A model generated the notes under the pieces. It saw nothing but the letters and a program-made list of their open reading frames with translations, was not told the origin of the DNA and did no database searches. From Ligilactobacillus faecis (lineage in GTDB: Bacteria > Bacillota > Bacilli > Lactobacillales > Lactobacillaceae), in the NCBI RefSeq assembly GCF_029889745.1, contig NZ_CP123639.1:2213501-2277500 (forward strand): a DNA stretch of 64,000 nucleotides. Direction: 5' to 3'. Of this stretch, positions 1-58,703 are shown piece by piece (the stretch's first letter is position 1; the number at the start of each line of letters is the position of its first letter). The position numbers and the translations under genes were made by a program.

Positions 1-894
1 ATTGATTCCCCTAAGATAGACAACATTTTTAGGGTCGATCTCATCAGATTTCTTATGGAATAAACGCCACTGTGATTTGAGAATCTTGTATTCTCGACTA
101 TGCTTATTGAGTGATCTAGTGAGAGCGATTCGACAACTGTCTAAAGCACGTCCGGCTAGCTGAACTATATGAAACCGATCAATAATAATCTTGGCATTCG
201 GGAAAAGTCGGCGAATGAAGCGCTGGTATTGAGCGTTTAAATCAATGACGACTGATTCCACTTGATCACGTTCAAACTTTGAGTAACGATTTTCAAAATA
301 ATTGATAATGGTAGAAGATAGTCTATCTGGGAGTTTAACAACTAACTTATGAGTTTGTGCATCACAACAGATAAAAGAAGTTGTATTTTTAATCGAACGA
401 AATTCATCAAAACAAAGATTCTTGGGCAAAACAGGTACTCGATATTGAGGTTTGATCCGTTCGACAATAGTTCTTCGAACACTACTAGCAGAGCAATGAC
501 AGATGCGAGCGATAAGTTCACCGTTCAAACCTTCCCTAGCTAATAACATGATCTGATTTTTTAGTTTACGAGAAAGAGTTTGATTAGGCTTAGTCAATTC
601 AGAGGTCGCACCGAAAGTTGTGCGACAATTTTTACATTGATAGCGTTGTTTATGAAGGATCATTTCATAACGTATACCGTTTAAACTTGGTAAACGTACG
701 TGAGCTTTAGCGAAACCATTTTTATTAACAGTGGCAAAGCCACAATTTCGACAACGGCTGATAGGATAAGATAGTACAGCTTTGATCAAAACTAATTTCT
801 CTGTGCCATTATTTAAATTATCGATAACATCAATAACTTTGAGATTAGGGTCTTTAATATTTAGAAGTTTTAGTATACAATCGTTATGGGACAT
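1..894 (-). CDS. ISL3-family transposase, 3' part beyond the window
   Basis: The frame is open from an ATG at 894 to the window edge, giving the first 298 residues. Near residues 50-100 there is a zinc-ribbon made of two CxxC pairs (CRNCG and CKNCR), as in the ISL3 N-terminal zinc domain. A helix-turn-helix-like stretch follows, then the start of the DDE transposase domain (VVIDLNAQY, IIDRFHIVQ), where Asp residues are placed as the first two catalytic acids. The missing part would carry the final Glu. The protein would cut and rejoin the element ends. Activity cannot be judged because the other end is not visible. Confidence 0.9.
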   Translation of the reverse strand, partial: MSHNDCILKLLNIKDPNLKVIDVIDNLNNGTEKLVLIKAVLSYPISRCRNCGFATVNKNGFAKAHVRLPSLNGIRYEMILHKQRYQCKNCRTTFGATSELTKPNQTLSRKLKNQIMLLAREGLNGELIARICHCSASSVRRTIVERIKPQYRVPVLPKNLCFDEFRSIKNTTSFICCDAQTHKLVVKLPDRLSSTIINYFENRYSKFERDQVESVVIDLNAQYQRFIRRLFPNAKIIIDRFHIVQLAGRALDSCRIALTRSLNKHSREYKILKSQWRLFHKKSDEIDPKNVVYLRGIN

Positions 895-2396: not shown

Positions 2397-2523
2397 GCTA
2401 TACCAAATGTGGTAAATACGTCGAGTATTCTAGAAAAATATAGCTTTTCCTTTCATGATTTTATTTACCAACTTACTCCACCTAAAGATCCGCTTTCTGT
2501 GCCACATTTTTCTTCCTAAACAG
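2397..2523 (-). promoter_or_regulatory. Structured leader of dnaJ: candidate split ribosome-binding site
   Basis: Reading 5' to 3' on the minus strand there is a hairpin CTGT/ACAG (2523-2520 with 2500-2497) with ATGTGG in its loop (2507-2502). A GAAAGGAAAA Shine-Dalgarno-like run follows, then GCTATA (2444-2439), a small hairpin AATAC/GTATT, CCACAT (2412-2407), TATAGC (2402-2397), nine bases and the ATG. GCTATA/TATAGC would loop out about 36 nt and bring the Shine-Dalgarno close to the start. ATGTGG/CCACAT would form a pseudoknot. The same order recurs before truB, rbfA, mvaS and gpmB. The folding is inferred by eye. Confidence 0.6.
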
Positions 2524-2573: not shown

Positions 2574-2579
2574 ATTATA
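2574..2579 (-). promoter_or_regulatory. Probable -10 element for dnaJ
   Basis: TATAAT lies on the minus strand 187 bp upstream of the dnaJ ATG and downstream of the dnaK terminator. No good -35 hexamer is visible at the expected spacing, so the promoter call is moderate. Confidence 0.45.
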
Positions 2580-7221: not shown

Positions 7222-8136
7222 TTACTCTAGATCGATCATCTGTTCTGCTCTAAACAATTTCTTAGTTTTATCATAATAATACAACGCGCGCACTTTACCT
7301 GCATAGTTCAAAACTACTTTATTGGCTGTATTTATATTTTTTAAATATTTAGGGGCTAAAAAACCTCCATTTTTCACAAGCTGCCATTGTTTATCTGAAA
7401 GCTCATATTGTGGATAGCTCGCTAACGCAGTTTGGATCGGTGCAACATATTTTTCCAGGCCATCACTCTTAACTGCTGCTTCTAATTCACTTAAGGTGAC
7501 ACTTTCAGCCAATGTAAAACCACCACTCTTAAGGCGGGTAAGATCAGACATAACTGCTGGTACACCTAAGATCTTCCCTAAATCAAAAGCAAGTGTGCGA
7601 ACGTACGTCCCTTTTCCACAACCAACTTCAAAAAAGAGAGTTTGTTGTTTTTTGAGTGGATCATAAATACTCGCTTTTACTTGTTTAAAATAATCGACTC
7701 TAATTTTTCTTTCCGGTCGTTTAACCGTCTCGTTGTTACGCGCATACTCATAAAGACGTTTACCGTTGACTTTGACAGCTGAATACATCGGTGGGACTTG
7801 GATGATCTCTCCAGTTAAGCGTTCCATCGCTTGCTTGATCTCTTCATCTGAAAATGGTTTTTCGATTTCTTTTGTAGTAACAACTTTTCCATCAAGGTCT
7901 TCTGTTTCAGTTGCAAAACCTAAAATGATCTGTCCCGTATAAACTTTTCCCGATTCCATCAAGTAGTTGACAACTTTTGTTCCTTTACCGATGCAGATCG
8001 GTAAAACACCATCAACATTAGGATCAAGTGTACCACTATGTCCGATCTTACGCGTTCGGAAAAGTTTACGACATTTGACTACTGCATCGTGACTTGTCAT
8101 ACCACGATCTTTATTTAAAGGTAAGATCCCATCCAT
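7222..8136 (-). CDS. truB: tRNA pseudouridine synthase B
   Basis: TruB makes pseudouridine 55 in the T loop of tRNAs. The 304-residue protein opens with GILPLNKDRGMTSHDAV. The catalytic Asp lies in GHSGTLDPNVDGVLPI at about residue 39, followed by the KXYTGQI and GTYVRTLAFDLG motifs, and a C-terminal PUA-like region. The ATG has no Shine-Dalgarno next to it. The candidate site is 55-60 nt upstream in a structured leader. A terminator separates it from rbfA. Confidence 0.97.
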   Translation of the reverse strand: MDGILPLNKDRGMTSHDAVVKCRKLFRTRKIGHSGTLDPNVDGVLPICIGKGTKVVNYLMESGKVYTGQIILGFATETEDLDGKVVTTKEIEKPFSDEEIKQAMERLTGEIIQVPPMYSAVKVNGKRLYEYARNNETVKRPERKIRVDYFKQVKASIYDPLKKQQTLFFEVGCGKGTYVRTLAFDLGKILGVPAVMSDLTRLKSGGFTLAESVTLSELEAAVKSDGLEKYVAPIQTALASYPQYELSDKQWQLVKNGGFLAPKYLKNINTANKVVLNYAGKVRALYYYDKTKKLFRAEQMIDLE

Positions 8137-8146
8137 TGTTATAACT

Positions 8147-8241
8147 GCTATCCAATGTGGAGCTACCCTTGTAGCTTAGAAAAAAGATAGCTTTTCCTTT
8201 CTAAAAAATTGCTATTACCCAGACCACACTTTTCTATCTGG
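8147..8241 (-). promoter_or_regulatory. Structured leader of truB: candidate split ribosome-binding site
   Basis: This is the most compact full copy. Hairpin CCAGA/TCTGG (8241-8237 with 8223-8219) holds GTGTGG in its loop (8229-8224). AGAAAGGAAAA (8202-8192) follows, then GCTATC (8191-8186), hairpin AGCTAC/GTAGCT (8176-8171 with 8166-8161), CCACAT (8160-8155), GATAGC (8152-8147), ten bases and the ATG. GCTATC/GATAGC differs from the dnaJ helix by a compensatory pair. Terminator-to-element distance is about 10 bp, so a promoter inside or upstream of the rbfA terminator must supply the transcript. Confidence 0.6.
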
Positions 8242-8295: not shown

Positions 8296-8658
8296 TTAAC
8301 GATCATTTTCTTGCTGGTGTAGCTTATTTAAAAGCTCATCAATGTGATCACCATAACGAACAGAGCTATCACGCTCAAATTTGATCTCAGGTGTCACATA
8401 GATCCGAAGTCGTTGACCTAATTCACGTCTGATCAAACCTGTTGCTTTATCAAGCCCGATCTGAGTCTTTTCTGCATCAGAAGCGAGATTTGAGAGCGTA
8501 CTGTAATAGATCGTGGCATGCTGTAGATCACCTGTAACTTCGACACCCGTGATCGTTACCCCTTGAACTCGTGGATCACGAACACGCTTTGCTAAAATAT
8601 CGTTGACTTCTTTTTGGATCTCTTGTGATAAGCGACCCACTCGATAATGTTGTGCCAT
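8296..8658 (-). CDS. rbfA: 30S ribosome-binding factor A
   Basis: RbfA binds the 30S subunit and assists 16S rRNA maturation and cold growth. The 120-residue protein has the KH-like fold signature (RVGRLSQEIQKEVNDIL, VTGDLQHATIYYS, IKFERDSSVRYGDHIDELL). It follows infB by 227 bp rather than the few bases common in Firmicutes. The gap holds a structured leader. The ATG at 8658 has only a poor AAGG two bases away. Confidence 0.97.
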   Translation of the reverse strand: MAQHYRVGRLSQEIQKEVNDILAKRVRDPRVQGVTITGVEVTGDLQHATIYYSTLSNLASDAEKTQIGLDKATGLIRRELGQRLRIYVTPEIKFERDSSVRYGDHIDELLNKLHQQENDR

Positions 8659-8667
8659 TGCCTTATC

Positions 8668-8777
8668 GCTATATAAAATGTGAGCAAGTGTAGTTAAAGT
8701 ACATTTGAGAAAGAGATATAGCTTTACCTTTCTTAATTTTATTTACTACCATTTTTACATATCTTGATCAAGGTAGT
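8668..8777 (-). promoter_or_regulatory. Structured leader of rbfA: candidate split ribosome-binding site
   Basis: Hairpin ACTACC/GGTAGT (8777-8772 with 8750-8745) carries AAAAT in its loop. GTAAATAAAATTAAGAAAGG runs into the Shine-Dalgarno-like GAAAGGTAAA, followed by GCTATAT (8722-8716) and a hairpin pairing 8707-8700 with 8692-8685 (seven of eight pairs). ATTTT (8679-8675) follows, then ATATAGC (8674-8668), nine bases and the ATG. The main helix is one pair longer than at dnaJ and is perfectly paired. The loop pseudoknot here is A-T only and weak. Confidence 0.58.
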
Positions 8778-8785
8778 AATAGCGA

Positions 8786-8880
8786 CTAACTTAAATATTT
8801 TAGGGGATATTTAAGACACGCTTAAAAGCTCCCCCCAGGCCATGTTTACTTCACATTCTATCCTTCTAGTAAACATGATC
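8786..8880 (-). other. Two further hairpins in the infB-rbfA gap
   Basis: Just after infB the minus strand has CATGTTTACT paired with AGTAAACATG (8876-8867 with 8850-8841), then GGGGGG near 8831-8836. Next comes CTTAAATAT/ATATTTAAG around 8788-8814 with CCCC in the loop, so G and C runs could also pair. No T run follows the first hairpin, so it is not a clear terminator. Confidence 0.45.
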
Positions 8881-16908: not shown

Positions 16909-18066
16909 TTATTGTTTTATATATTGTCGTTTATTTTCTTTTACACCTGCTAAAACAAACTGCGCTGGGTCACTTGTAATATCCAATTCACGATCGCTTT
17001 CATGCTTTAAATTACTTTCAAAAATTTTTTCATATTCTAAAACATCGACTTCTTTTCTATGAGCTAATAATTTAGTATGATCTCCTAATGCTTCTTTAAA
17101 TTTTGGTTGTAAGATTCCTGAATAAAATTCGGCTTGTGCTCCTGAGCCATAACTAAATAATCCTAGTCGATCACCTGGGCAAAGTGAAGTACTATTTTCT
17201 AAAAGTGATAGTAAACTCAAATATAAAGAACCCGTATAAAGATTTCCCGTCACTTTACTGTATTGCTTACTTGCCTCAAATTCCGCCAAGAGCTGAGCTT
17301 GCTTAGTTGGATCAAGTGAAGCGATCGCTACACGCAAAGCCTTCAATCCTTGTTTGGTATACGGTAAATGGAATAAGAGAGCTTTAAAATCATTAGCAGT
17401 CAACCCCGTTTTTTGCTGATAGCGGGCAAAGACTTTTGCAAAAAAGTCTAGATAGATACCAGCTGAGTATTTTCCATCGACTAATGCTTCCGTTGCTGCT
17501 AACGGACGCCAAAAGTCCATGATATCATCAGCATAATAAACACTATCATCTTGTAAAGCTAAGATCTGTGGATCGTTTGCGACTAACATCGCAACTGCCC
17601 CACCGCCTTGCGTTGGCTCACCAGCAGTTTTCAACCCATAGCGTGCAATATCTGCCCCGATCACTAAGGCCTTTTTATCTGGATGAAGTGCAATATGCCC
17701 TTTCGCCAGCTGAAGACCAGCTGTGGCTGCATAGCAAGCTTGTTTTAGTTCAAGGACTCGGATATCTTTTCGCAGTCCCAATAGTCGACTGACATAAGCA
17801 GCCACTGATTTAGAATTATCAACACCTGATTCAGTGGCTACGATCACAAGATCGATCTTTTCCATATCTTCTTTAGTTATGATCGAAGCTGCTGCATTAG
17901 CTGCTAAAGTCACTGCATCTTGTGTTGGCGGGATCACTGCCATTTTTTCTTGTCCGATCCCGATCAAATATTTATTAGGGTCAACCTCCCGCGCTTTTGC
18001 TAATTTTGCCATCTCAACATACAAATGTGAAGTATAAAAACCTAACTTATCAATCCCGATATTCAT
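16909..18066 (-). CDS. mvaS: Hydroxymethylglutaryl-CoA synthase
   Basis: MvaS condenses acetyl-CoA with acetoacetyl-CoA to HMG-CoA, the first committed step of the mevalonate route to isoprenoids. The 385-residue protein has the general-base Glu in VIVATESGVDNSKS, the nucleophilic Cys in ELKQACYAATAGLQLA (about residue 111) and the His in LLFHLPYTKQGLKAL. Mevalonate use fits lactobacilli. The ATG overlaps the stop of a 6-codon leader peptide and has no Shine-Dalgarno of its own. Confidence 0.97.
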   Translation of the reverse strand: MNIGIDKLGFYTSHLYVEMAKLAKAREVDPNKYLIGIGQEKMAVIPPTQDAVTLAANAAASIITKEDMEKIDLVIVATESGVDNSKSVAAYVSRLLGLRKDIRVLELKQACYAATAGLQLAKGHIALHPDKKALVIGADIARYGLKTAGEPTQGGGAVAMLVANDPQILALQDDSVYYADDIMDFWRPLAATEALVDGKYSAGIYLDFFAKVFARYQQKTGLTANDFKALLFHLPYTKQGLKALRVAIASLDPTKQAQLLAEFEASKQYSKVTGNLYTGSLYLSLLSLLENSTSLCPGDRLGLFSYGSGAQAEFYSGILQPKFKEALGDHTKLLAHRKEVDVLEYEKIFESNLKHESDRELDITSDPAQFVLAGVKENKRQYIKQ

Positions 18067-18086
18067 TATTTTTTTAGATCAAACAA
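18066..18086 (-). CDS. Candidate leader peptide MFDLKK coupled to mvaS
   Basis: TTG at 18086 opens a six-codon frame that ends in TAA at 18068-18066. Its last base is the first base of the mvaS ATG (TAATG). GAAGGT lies 4-5 nt before the TTG, and the leader helix CTATAGC ends exactly 10 nt before it. Stop-start overlap suggests that ribosomes finishing the peptide re-initiate at mvaS. Translation of the peptide is inferred. Confidence 0.5.
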   Translation of the reverse strand: MFDLKK

Positions 18087-18096
18087 GCTGACCTTC

Positions 18097-18216
18097 GCTA
18101 TAGTAAGCACAAATACAAATTTATATATTTTGGAAGACTATAGCATTTCCTTTCTCTATTACTCACTATTATCAAGAAGAGTCGTTGCGAGCTCCTTTAT
18201 GCTTAAACTTCCTAGT
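18097..18216 (-). promoter_or_regulatory. Structured leader of mvaS: candidate split ribosome-binding site
   Basis: The minus strand has ACTA-GGAAG pairing with CTTCT-TAGT around a large loop that contains AAGCATA (18204-18198). GAGAAAGGAAAT follows, then GCTATAG (18144-18138), a weak AAATA/TATTT hairpin, TGTGCTT (18111-18105), CTATAGC (18103-18097), ten bases and the leader-peptide TTG. AAGCATA pairs with TGTGCTT over seven positions including one wobble, replacing the ATGTGG/CCACAT pair seen at dnaJ. That is covariation across loci. Confidence 0.58.
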
Positions 18217-18299
18217 ATTTATGACAATAGCTTTCCTGTACGCTAAAATTATACCACATGATCTGAGAGCTCAAAACTGACCGCTTTCCAAAAACGTAG

Positions 18300-57874: not shown

Positions 57875-58528
57875 TTAAACAACGTCAGTCGGATCAAGGT
57901 CTTTTTTTAGATAATCCGTTTTATTCCACGCTAAGCACTTAAAATTTTCACCATCTTTTGTCTCTAAGATCGTCGTACTTGTATTAGCAAGACCACCTTG
58001 ATCACGTAATTTAGCTAATGGTACTCCCAATAAATGCCGGATCTCAGCACAAAGCGCTGCCCCATGGCTAACGATCAAAACATTTTCTTTTGGATAGCGA
58101 GCACAGATCGCTTTGATCTTTGGCGTCATCCGCGCAAACAATTCTGGAAAGGATTCACCGGCGATCGCACTTGGATCGTAACGCTCAGGATGATAGCGAA
58201 AAGCATCGAGTTCAGCTGGATATTTCTCAGCAACTTCCGTAAATTTCATCCCTTCCATCTTTCCAAGATCAAATTCTTGTAAAGCTACATCAGCTTCAAG
58301 TTTTACGGGACGGTCCAGTTGTTTGATCAATTCTTTAGCGGTCGTCTTTGCTCGCTTGATCGGACTACAATAAACTTTTGCAAAAGCAATTGGGGCTAAA
58401 TATTTTGCTAGTAGTTCGATCTCATGGTAACTTTCTGGTAATAATGGTGAATCACCTTTAGCCCCTTGATAACGCCCTTCCAAGTTCCATTCAGTCTTAC
58501 CATGACGTACAAAATATAGTCTTGTCAA
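57875..58528 (-). CDS. Histidine phosphatase superfamily protein, GpmB-like
   Basis: The 217-residue enzyme has the phosphohistidine motif LYFVRHGKTEWN near the N-terminus and the second His in VLIVSHGAALCAE. The family includes cofactor-dependent phosphoglycerate mutases and broad phosphatases, and this branch is usually a phosphatase. The start is TTG 58528. No Shine-Dalgarno is adjacent, and a GAAAGGAAAGGG run 60-75 nt upstream lies in a structured leader. Confidence 0.88.
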   Translation of the reverse strand: MTRLYFVRHGKTEWNLEGRYQGAKGDSPLLPESYHEIELLAKYLAPIAFAKVYCSPIKRAKTTAKELIKQLDRPVKLEADVALQEFDLGKMEGMKFTEVAEKYPAELDAFRYHPERYDPSAIAGESFPELFARMTPKIKAICARYPKENVLIVSHGAALCAEIRHLLGVPLAKLRDQGGLANTSTTILETKDGENFKCLAWNKTDYLKKDLDPTDVV

Positions 58529-58538
58529 ATTTCGCGTA

Positions 58539-58659
58539 GCTATATAAATGTAGGATCATATAGTTCAATATGATCAGAAAGAACTATAGTTTCCCTTTCC
58601 TTTCTTTTATCTACACTGGTCGTCTATTTATCCACCCCACATTTTTTCTTTCTAGTGAA
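58539..58659 (-). promoter_or_regulatory. Structured leader of the gpmB-like gene: candidate split ribosome-binding site
   Basis: Hairpin TTCAC/GTGGA (58659-58655 with 58635-58631) has ATGTGG in its loop (58642-58637). AAGAAAGGAAAGGGAAA follows, then CTATA (58589-58585), CTACAT (58553-58548), TATAG (58544-58540), then C, ten bases and the TTG. ATGTGG can pair with CTACAT. A local helix TATAGTTC/GAACTATA (58588-58581 with 58566-58559) uses the same CTATA bases, so two alternative folds are possible. Confidence 0.58.
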
Positions 58660-58703
58660 TAAGTAATGACTAGCGACCTCTTAACTAGAAATAATCAACT
58701 ATT

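Follow-up and report, generated by a model that had tools for sequence, protein, structure and literature searches.

The reRNA end of an IS607-type TnpB transposon as a probable translation leader in Ligilactobacillus faecis

Our results suggest that one end of a mobile element has become a leader of ordinary bacterial genes in Ligilactobacillus faecis. This end encodes the reRNA of an IS607-family TnpB transposon, and it has probably been reused as a translation leader that carries a substitute Shine-Dalgarno sequence (SD). As far as the DNA alone can tell, the case is made by the reRNA identity of the scaffold, a GGAG at the left ends of the elements, a near-fixed distance to the start codon, and covariation between paired strands.

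Five leaders in the window

The window is a stretch of 64,000 nucleotides (contig NZ_CP123639.1, positions 2,213,501 to 2,277,500). It contains the following features.

2574..2579, minus strand: probable -10 element (TATAAT) of the dnaJ leader promoter, read from the sequence
2502..2509, minus strand: dnaJ leader, loop AAATGTGG, 5' strand of the pseudoknot (read from the sequence; pairing test)
2445..2454, minus strand: dnaJ leader, SD run GAAAGGAAAA, best anti-SD duplex -9.6 kcal/mol
2438..2444, minus strand: dnaJ leader, 5' arm of helix P3, GCTATAT (sequence, folding, pairing test)
about 2414..2430, minus strand: dnaJ leader, small hairpin inside P3 (folding)
2405..2412, minus strand: dnaJ leader, loop partner CCACATTT, 3' strand of the pseudoknot (sequence, pairing test)
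2397..2403, minus strand: dnaJ leader, 3' arm of P3, GTATAGC, followed by 9 nt and the ATG at 2387
8147..8241, minus strand: truB leader, arms GCTATC/GATAGC, ATG at 8136 (model match, pairing test)
8668..8878, minus strand: rbfA leader, a left-end-type hairpin and then the right-end scaffold, ATG at 8658
18097..18230 (5' limit approximate), minus strand: mvaS leader (model match)
58539..58690 (5' limit approximate), minus strand: leader of a gpmB-like gene (His_Phos_1), TTG at 58528

Pfam confirmed the products of the leader genes as DnaJ, TruB, RbfA, HMG-CoA synthase (mvaS) and a histidine phosphatase (gpmB-like). Every part of the dnaJ leader lies where the initial annotation had put it, including the SD run on the far side of a helix from the ATG, and reading each leader showed the same order of parts before truB, rbfA, mvaS and the gpmB-like gene. 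That annotation had counted five to eight copies in the window: five hold (all E<1e-7), but eight do not, the next matches having E=2.6 and 9.8. Its statement that the arms differ at every locus and still pair was right about complementarity but not about the main helix, where one form, GCTATAT/ATATAGC, is commoner than any other. It does hold for the upstream hairpin, whose stems differ among the 14 examples listed. All five copies are solo, with tnpB upstream of none of them.

Two leaders have details of their own. At rbfA, the left-end-type hairpin (stem TCATGTTTACT/AGTAAACATGG, loop AGAAGGATAGAATGTGA) is followed by ATGG, in the same place as the tnpA start in the elements. At mvaS, a TTG at the usual distance opens a frame of six codons, the TAA of which overlaps the mvaS ATG at 18066 (TAATG); translational coupling through this mini-frame (18066-18097) is possible.

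General searches of the window were of little help. At the Rfam gathering threshold a tRNA is the sole match in the window and no leader is matched, while at E<=10 the dnaJ leader gives seven matches, all far under their gathering scores. An unselective scan for complementarity was swamped by chance matches. The motif GAAAGGAAA on its own says little, since it was seen 4 times against 1.7 expected and 4 of 100 shuffles reach 4. The window also begins inside an ISL3-family transposase gene (1-894, minus strand; Pfam DDE_Tnp_ISL3), which runs past the window start.

Copies in the genome and in relatives

The annotation expected many more copies in the genome and proposed a covariance-model search, which indeed yields about 80. 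Our model (R1) describes the 3' half of the leader and was built from 7 sequences, 5 of them window copies. Scoring 150 of 1711 first-look candidates in the 2.38 Mb genome gave at least 94 matches at E<=10, at least 82 of them below 1. We read 71 of the 94, leaving out the 23 with E>0.262. Copies were split by one rule throughout: a copy counts as tnpB-linked if tblastn finds tnpB sequence within 600 nt upstream, and as solo otherwise. By this rule the genome has 59 solo and 12 linked copies among the 71 read, and its relatives have 51 and 15 among 66, so that tnpB sequence lies upstream of 27 of all 137. Two solos (own53 and own69), in which the model misplaced an arm, were excluded from the statistics, leaving n=57 (n=55 under an earlier, cruder rule).

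R1 matches at E<=0.01 occur in at least 11 of 60 genomes, our own included, with at most the best 70 candidates scored per genome. Besides our own, these are at least 9 of 25 genomes of the same genus and at least 1 of 11 from other genera of the family. None was seen in 23 genomes from other families of the order, among at most 70 candidates per genome. One genome of another genus (G030) has a single solo leader (L038) and no other match; the gene behind it is 32% identical to a P-type ATPase (L055).

Many of the leader genes have housekeeping functions. NCBIfam models identify radA, adk, murA, cdaA, coaBC and cshA over their cut-offs. gyrA, clpB (cut by the end of the locus) and thiol peroxidase score below theirs, and rodA exceeds the cut-off of a single subfamily model.

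The scaffold is a TnpB reRNA

Near-identical copies of the scaffold lie directly 3' of tnpB, at the right end of the element, right behind a frame whose last residues, CYECGAIMDRDENAVANLLALLN, are those of the TnpB zinc ribbon. Of the 20 TnpB genes in the genome, 7 have the scaffold by position, and five of these seven elements are alike end to end over about 2.03 kb (tnpA region, tnpB and scaffold). The TnpBs have OrfB_IS605 and Cas12f1-like_TNB domains (Pfam); all seven scaffold-linked ones have open frames and, judged by eye in an alignment to solved TnpBs, RuvC motifs. In keeping with a serine recombinase, TnpA has Resolvase and MerR domains in a related element of another genus, where its frame is open (L287), and a Resolvase domain in a piece from our genome (L122). 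The tnpA frame of our genome is interrupted in all 5 copies (of the 7) whose tnpA start was found.

The Rfam family Transposase-1 (RF03014) matches a tnpB-linked copy at 72.4 bits. It covers the 5' part of the scaffold in linked copies, where it is over its cut-off, and 8 of the 9 own-genome matches listed exceed the gathering cut-off, whereas the window leaders all fall below it. At E<=1e-5 it is found in at least 8 of 295 genomes of the order. Because the RNA adjoins the 3' end of tnpB and matches RF03014, we identify the scaffold, judging by sequence and position, as the reRNA (omega-RNA) of an IS607-type TnpB transposon. We take the solo copies to derive from the tnpB-linked scaffold.

Hence the suggestion that these leaders belong to no described class does not stand: the class is known as the IS607 TnpB reRNA scaffold, and RF03014 matches its tnpB-linked copies. 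What appears to be new is the place, since a known kind of RNA is found here in mRNA leaders. In the non-subscription literature that we searched, we found no report of a TnpB or IS607 reRNA as a leader, SD or start-codon element, and only one paper has AGGAG together with TnpB (PMC11061315). Two papers contain both "tnpb" and "shine-dalgarno". In PMC13418256 that SD, in a figure legend, belongs to fliC; the other, PMC12857756, is a review.

Lacto-rpoB (RF01709) was rejected as an identity, its one genome match being below the cut-off and outside the window; this weak match (L003, 28.2 bits) lies at 376372-376429 of the genome. The genome also has 13 more TnpB genes (L100-L112), 12 of which are of another type of about 416 aa (one shortened), and no listed R1 match lies within 1.5 kb of them.

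Elements insert behind a GGAG motif

Thirteen Ligilactobacillus elements were looked at, and all 10 that have a recognisable left end are flanked there by GGAG. In another genus, where 12 elements were fetched, the left flank is AGGAG in 4 of 4 recognisable left ends, which represent 3 independent sites because L289 and L290 are one insertion in two species. A fifth match to the left-end pattern (L293) was excluded because it lies inside tnpB. Genes at the AGGAG-flanked elements include those for a glycerol-3-phosphate cytidylyltransferase and an ECF transporter.

One insertion is particularly clear. The left flank of L124 ends in GTGGGAGGAG and its right flank is AAACAATG of scpB; judged by these flanks, the element is placed between the SD and the start codon of scpB. 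The gene upstream is presumably scpA. Another linked element of our genome (L125) sits at the 3' end of an ORF.

The flanks agree with published work. The target-adjacent motif (TAM) reported for IS607 TnpB is AGGAG in 18 of 22 strains (PMC11061315), and IS607 has been reported to insert at (G)GG with no target duplication (PMC6188088). In this family of RNA-guided nucleases the TAM is thus also an SD, and, going by the layout of the copies, it is the start of the gene that takes the guide position of the reRNA.

Start codons and Shine-Dalgarno sequences

A start codon at a near-fixed short distance was claimed for the window, and it is found well beyond it. In 54 of the 57 own solos, a start codon (frame of at least 50 codons) lies 7-15 nt past the helix, the commonest distance being 11. 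The three others are mvaS with its six-codon TTG frame, own38 (nothing) and own55 (39 codons). The same holds for 44 of 51 solos in relatives, 10 of 15 tnpB-linked copies in Ligilactobacillus relatives, and 11 of 14 elements from other genera (9 of 12 independent ones, as there are two ortholog pairs). Four of these 14 have tnpB by frames, two of them broken; L269 has no detectable scaffold end and was excluded. Linked copies in our genome have such a start codon less often (4 of 12, and 2 of the 7 intact elements). As a control, 1674 of 20000 random window positions have a start codon at this distance, and 2559 of 20000 on the gene-rich strand.

The 16S tail CCTCCTTTCT is found in the genome. 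Pairing with it has a mean energy of -10.4 kcal/mol for the scaffold SD run of the own solos and -5.0 kcal/mol for shuffled scaffold, although the search model rewards GAAAGG plus helix and so favours both this result and the pairing results below. The 20 nt before the starts of leader genes reach a mean of -4.0 kcal/mol, with 18 of 54 at or below -5, so that some ordinary SD is present in these 18; in dnaJ, the segment between P3 and the ATG has +2.0 kcal/mol. For 27 hand-picked ordinary genes of the window the mean is -8.7 kcal/mol, with 22 of 27 at or below -5. GAAAGGA is hence a strong match to the 16S tail across the helix from the start codon, as proposed, and most leader genes lack a good ordinary SD.

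Most simply, the ribosome would use the SD on the far side, with the helix taking the intervening RNA away. Initiation that depends on the fold would fit the sequence data. Alternatives to use of the far-side SD are entry at an AU-rich standby site or control by TnpB.

Paired strands covary

Across the 57 solos, the arms of P3 pair better with each other than when swapped (6.18 versus 5.63), and 0 of 5000 permutations reach this value, although P3 is part of the search model and the test therefore leans towards pairing. The pseudoknot lies outside the model; its own strands score 8.21 versus 7.09 when swapped, again reached by 0 of 5000 permutations. The 55 solos of the cruder rule give the same outcome (0 of 5000 for the helix and 0 of 5000 for the pseudoknot), and in all cases common ancestry of sub-families can inflate the test. 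These permutations support the view of a recurring pseudoknotted leader whose pairing is preserved by compensatory change. Plain minimum free energy folding, which leaves out the pseudoknot, is unimpressive (z from -1.75 to +0.11).

Many solo leaders have a pyrimidine run, TTCTTTCT, behind the 5' helix arm (e.g., window 2432-2437), which is complementary both to the SD and to the run of purines in the upstream loop. Pairing of this run with the SD could mask the latter, so that an on/off switch in the leaders is possible.

Leaders differ between species, and some are conserved

In L. murinus, L. apodemi and L. animalis there is no scaffold match at truB or rbfA; both genes have ordinary SDs there, such as TGAGGAGGAATTTGA before the rbfA ATG. 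These two leaders are therefore not common to the sister species, as is expected of a mobile source. The genomes that we take to be L. apodemi and L. animalis (G021 and G022) carry other leaders, and a few of our own are common to several species, for example the one at an Asp23-family gene (own56, L170, L175).

Genome G014 has at least 17 scaffold matches, none of them tnpB-linked. No such TnpB was found in it at E<=1e-20, which in a draft of about 140 contigs does not prove absence; its sole PF07282 gene is a TnpB of another type. G022 has TnpB pieces at contig ends. Between 14 G014/G022 leader pairs, the helix arms changed at 3 of 196 sites and the other sites at 189 of 2304 (Fisher p=2e-4). 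The pseudoknot loop has 1 change in 120 sites, plus 10 gaps. The partner strand (10 of 120, a count raised by the poorly aligned pair L148/L147) and the SD strand (9 of 137) are not slower than other sites. Leaders are thus conserved, at the level of sequence, between two species, in one of which no such TnpB was found. Since G022 has TnpB pieces, the constraint belongs to both branches together and not to a TnpB-free branch alone.

From element to solo leader

In 31 of 55 solos we recognised a hairpin with a loop of the type AGAAAGnnAAAATGTGR, the stem of which varies from locus to locus. Several intact elements have the same hairpin at their left end, immediately ahead of tnpA. With a left-end hairpin joined to a right-end scaffold, many solo leaders look like internally deleted elements, and remnants with broken or partial tnpB exist as well. 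The hairpin is unrecognised in 24 of 55 solos, including dnaJ, truB and mvaS; in dnaJ the loop AAATGTGG resembles the left-end loop by eye, and the stem rule misses the hairpin.

The native SD has left little trace. Of 39 copies, only 3 (own26, own29 and own65) have a GGAG-type motif within the 75 nt that precede the hairpin, which is no enrichment, and the anti-SD energy upstream of solo hairpins equals that of control windows (-5.96 versus -5.95). Because there is no recognisable native SD to the left of most solos, we infer, rather than observe, their decay from insertions.

Discussion

The following scenario would connect these observations. An element inserts directly on the 3' side of GGAG. 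At a gene start this motif would be the SD, and the native SD would thereby be cut off from its start codon. The 3' end of the scaffold would then bring its own SD (GAAAGGA), followed by the helix and the pseudoknot. About 7-15 nt separate the 3' arm of the helix from the start codon, and folding would put GAAAGGA near the start. The leader would be retained once translation relies on it, and tnpA and tnpB would be free to decay. The route to solo copies by decay, the use of the far-side SD by the ribosome, and the dependence on the fold are what we infer here.

If this is correct, a guide-RNA scaffold apparently doubles as a replacement ribosome-binding site. It would then be understandable that these elements occupy gene starts and leave the genes active, and that a genome comes to translate genes such as dnaJ, gyrA, adk, murA and cdaA from transposon-derived leaders. 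It would also provide dozens of natural, divergent examples of an SD across a pseudoknotted helix, in which structure-dependent initiation could be tested.

One could also argue that the leaders are still live guides. TnpB would load host mRNAs with the gene's own start region as guide, and incoming alleles that lack the leader, in which the SD would act as TAM ahead of the start region, would be cut and replaced by the allele with the leader. We consider this unlikely. If it were true, a homing system would have converted dozens of ribosome-binding sites, and TnpB would possibly also tune the translation of those genes. A related argument gives the leaders a different selected function: wherever TnpB is present, it would bind them in trans and repress or process the mRNAs. 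TnpB has been reported to process its own mRNA (PMC10278001), the leaders retain reRNA features, and the seven scaffold-linked TnpBs of our genome have open frames and RuvC motifs. G014 nevertheless retains its 17 or more leaders with no such TnpB found in the draft, and we regard the argument as improbable.

Another reading would make the leaders a regulatory RNA class of the host, of the riboswitch or the protein-binding type, from which a TnpB transposon later took its reRNA; we think it quite improbable. Strong covariation, housekeeping targets and the 59 of 71 copies read that have no tnpB upstream would all suit such a class, but TnpB elements of other genera have a similar 3' scaffold, the truB and rbfA leaders are absent from the named sister species, and the downstream genes have no visible common pathway. 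At the other extreme, the solos could be neutral transposon remnants whose position before start codons mirrors nothing but the GGAG insertion preference. The preference of the left flank would by itself account for the distance, and broken or partial tnpB remnants do occur. Neutral remnants should not, however, show a helix and a pseudoknot that covary, nor helix arms and a pseudoknot loop that are conserved between G014 and G022 relative to other sites, nor should most leader genes lack another good SD. We think this explanation very improbable. Reuse of the reRNA end as a translation leader remains the reading that we prefer.

Phage T4 gene 25 has a hairpin-spanned SD, which the intervening helix brings closer to the start codon. 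The leaders are alike in that a helix lies between SD and start codon, and their geometry and covariation fit this arrangement. They differ in being a many-copy family that is pseudoknotted and derived from a transposon.

The closest relatives of the RNA itself are IS607 TnpB reRNA systems, namely ISFba1 and its relatives with their RAGATH-18 reRNA (Ren et al. 2024; PMC11061315). They share with our elements an IS607 TnpA and TnpB, a TnpB of about 385 aa, a non-coding reRNA 3' of tnpB, a pseudoknot from the apical loop to the 3' end, and an AGGAG-type TAM, so that both topology and flank agree. In contrast to them, the Rfam match here is Transposase-1, with RAGATH-18 absent among the matches, and most of our copies are solo leaders. 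The terms "shine", "ribosom" and "start codon" are absent from the main text of that paper.

Reuse of TnpB-type parts by the host is known from TldRs, which are described as exapted, TnpB-like RNA-guided repressors (PMC13418256). There, protein and guide are reused for transcription; here it is the RNA scaffold that is reused, apparently for translation.
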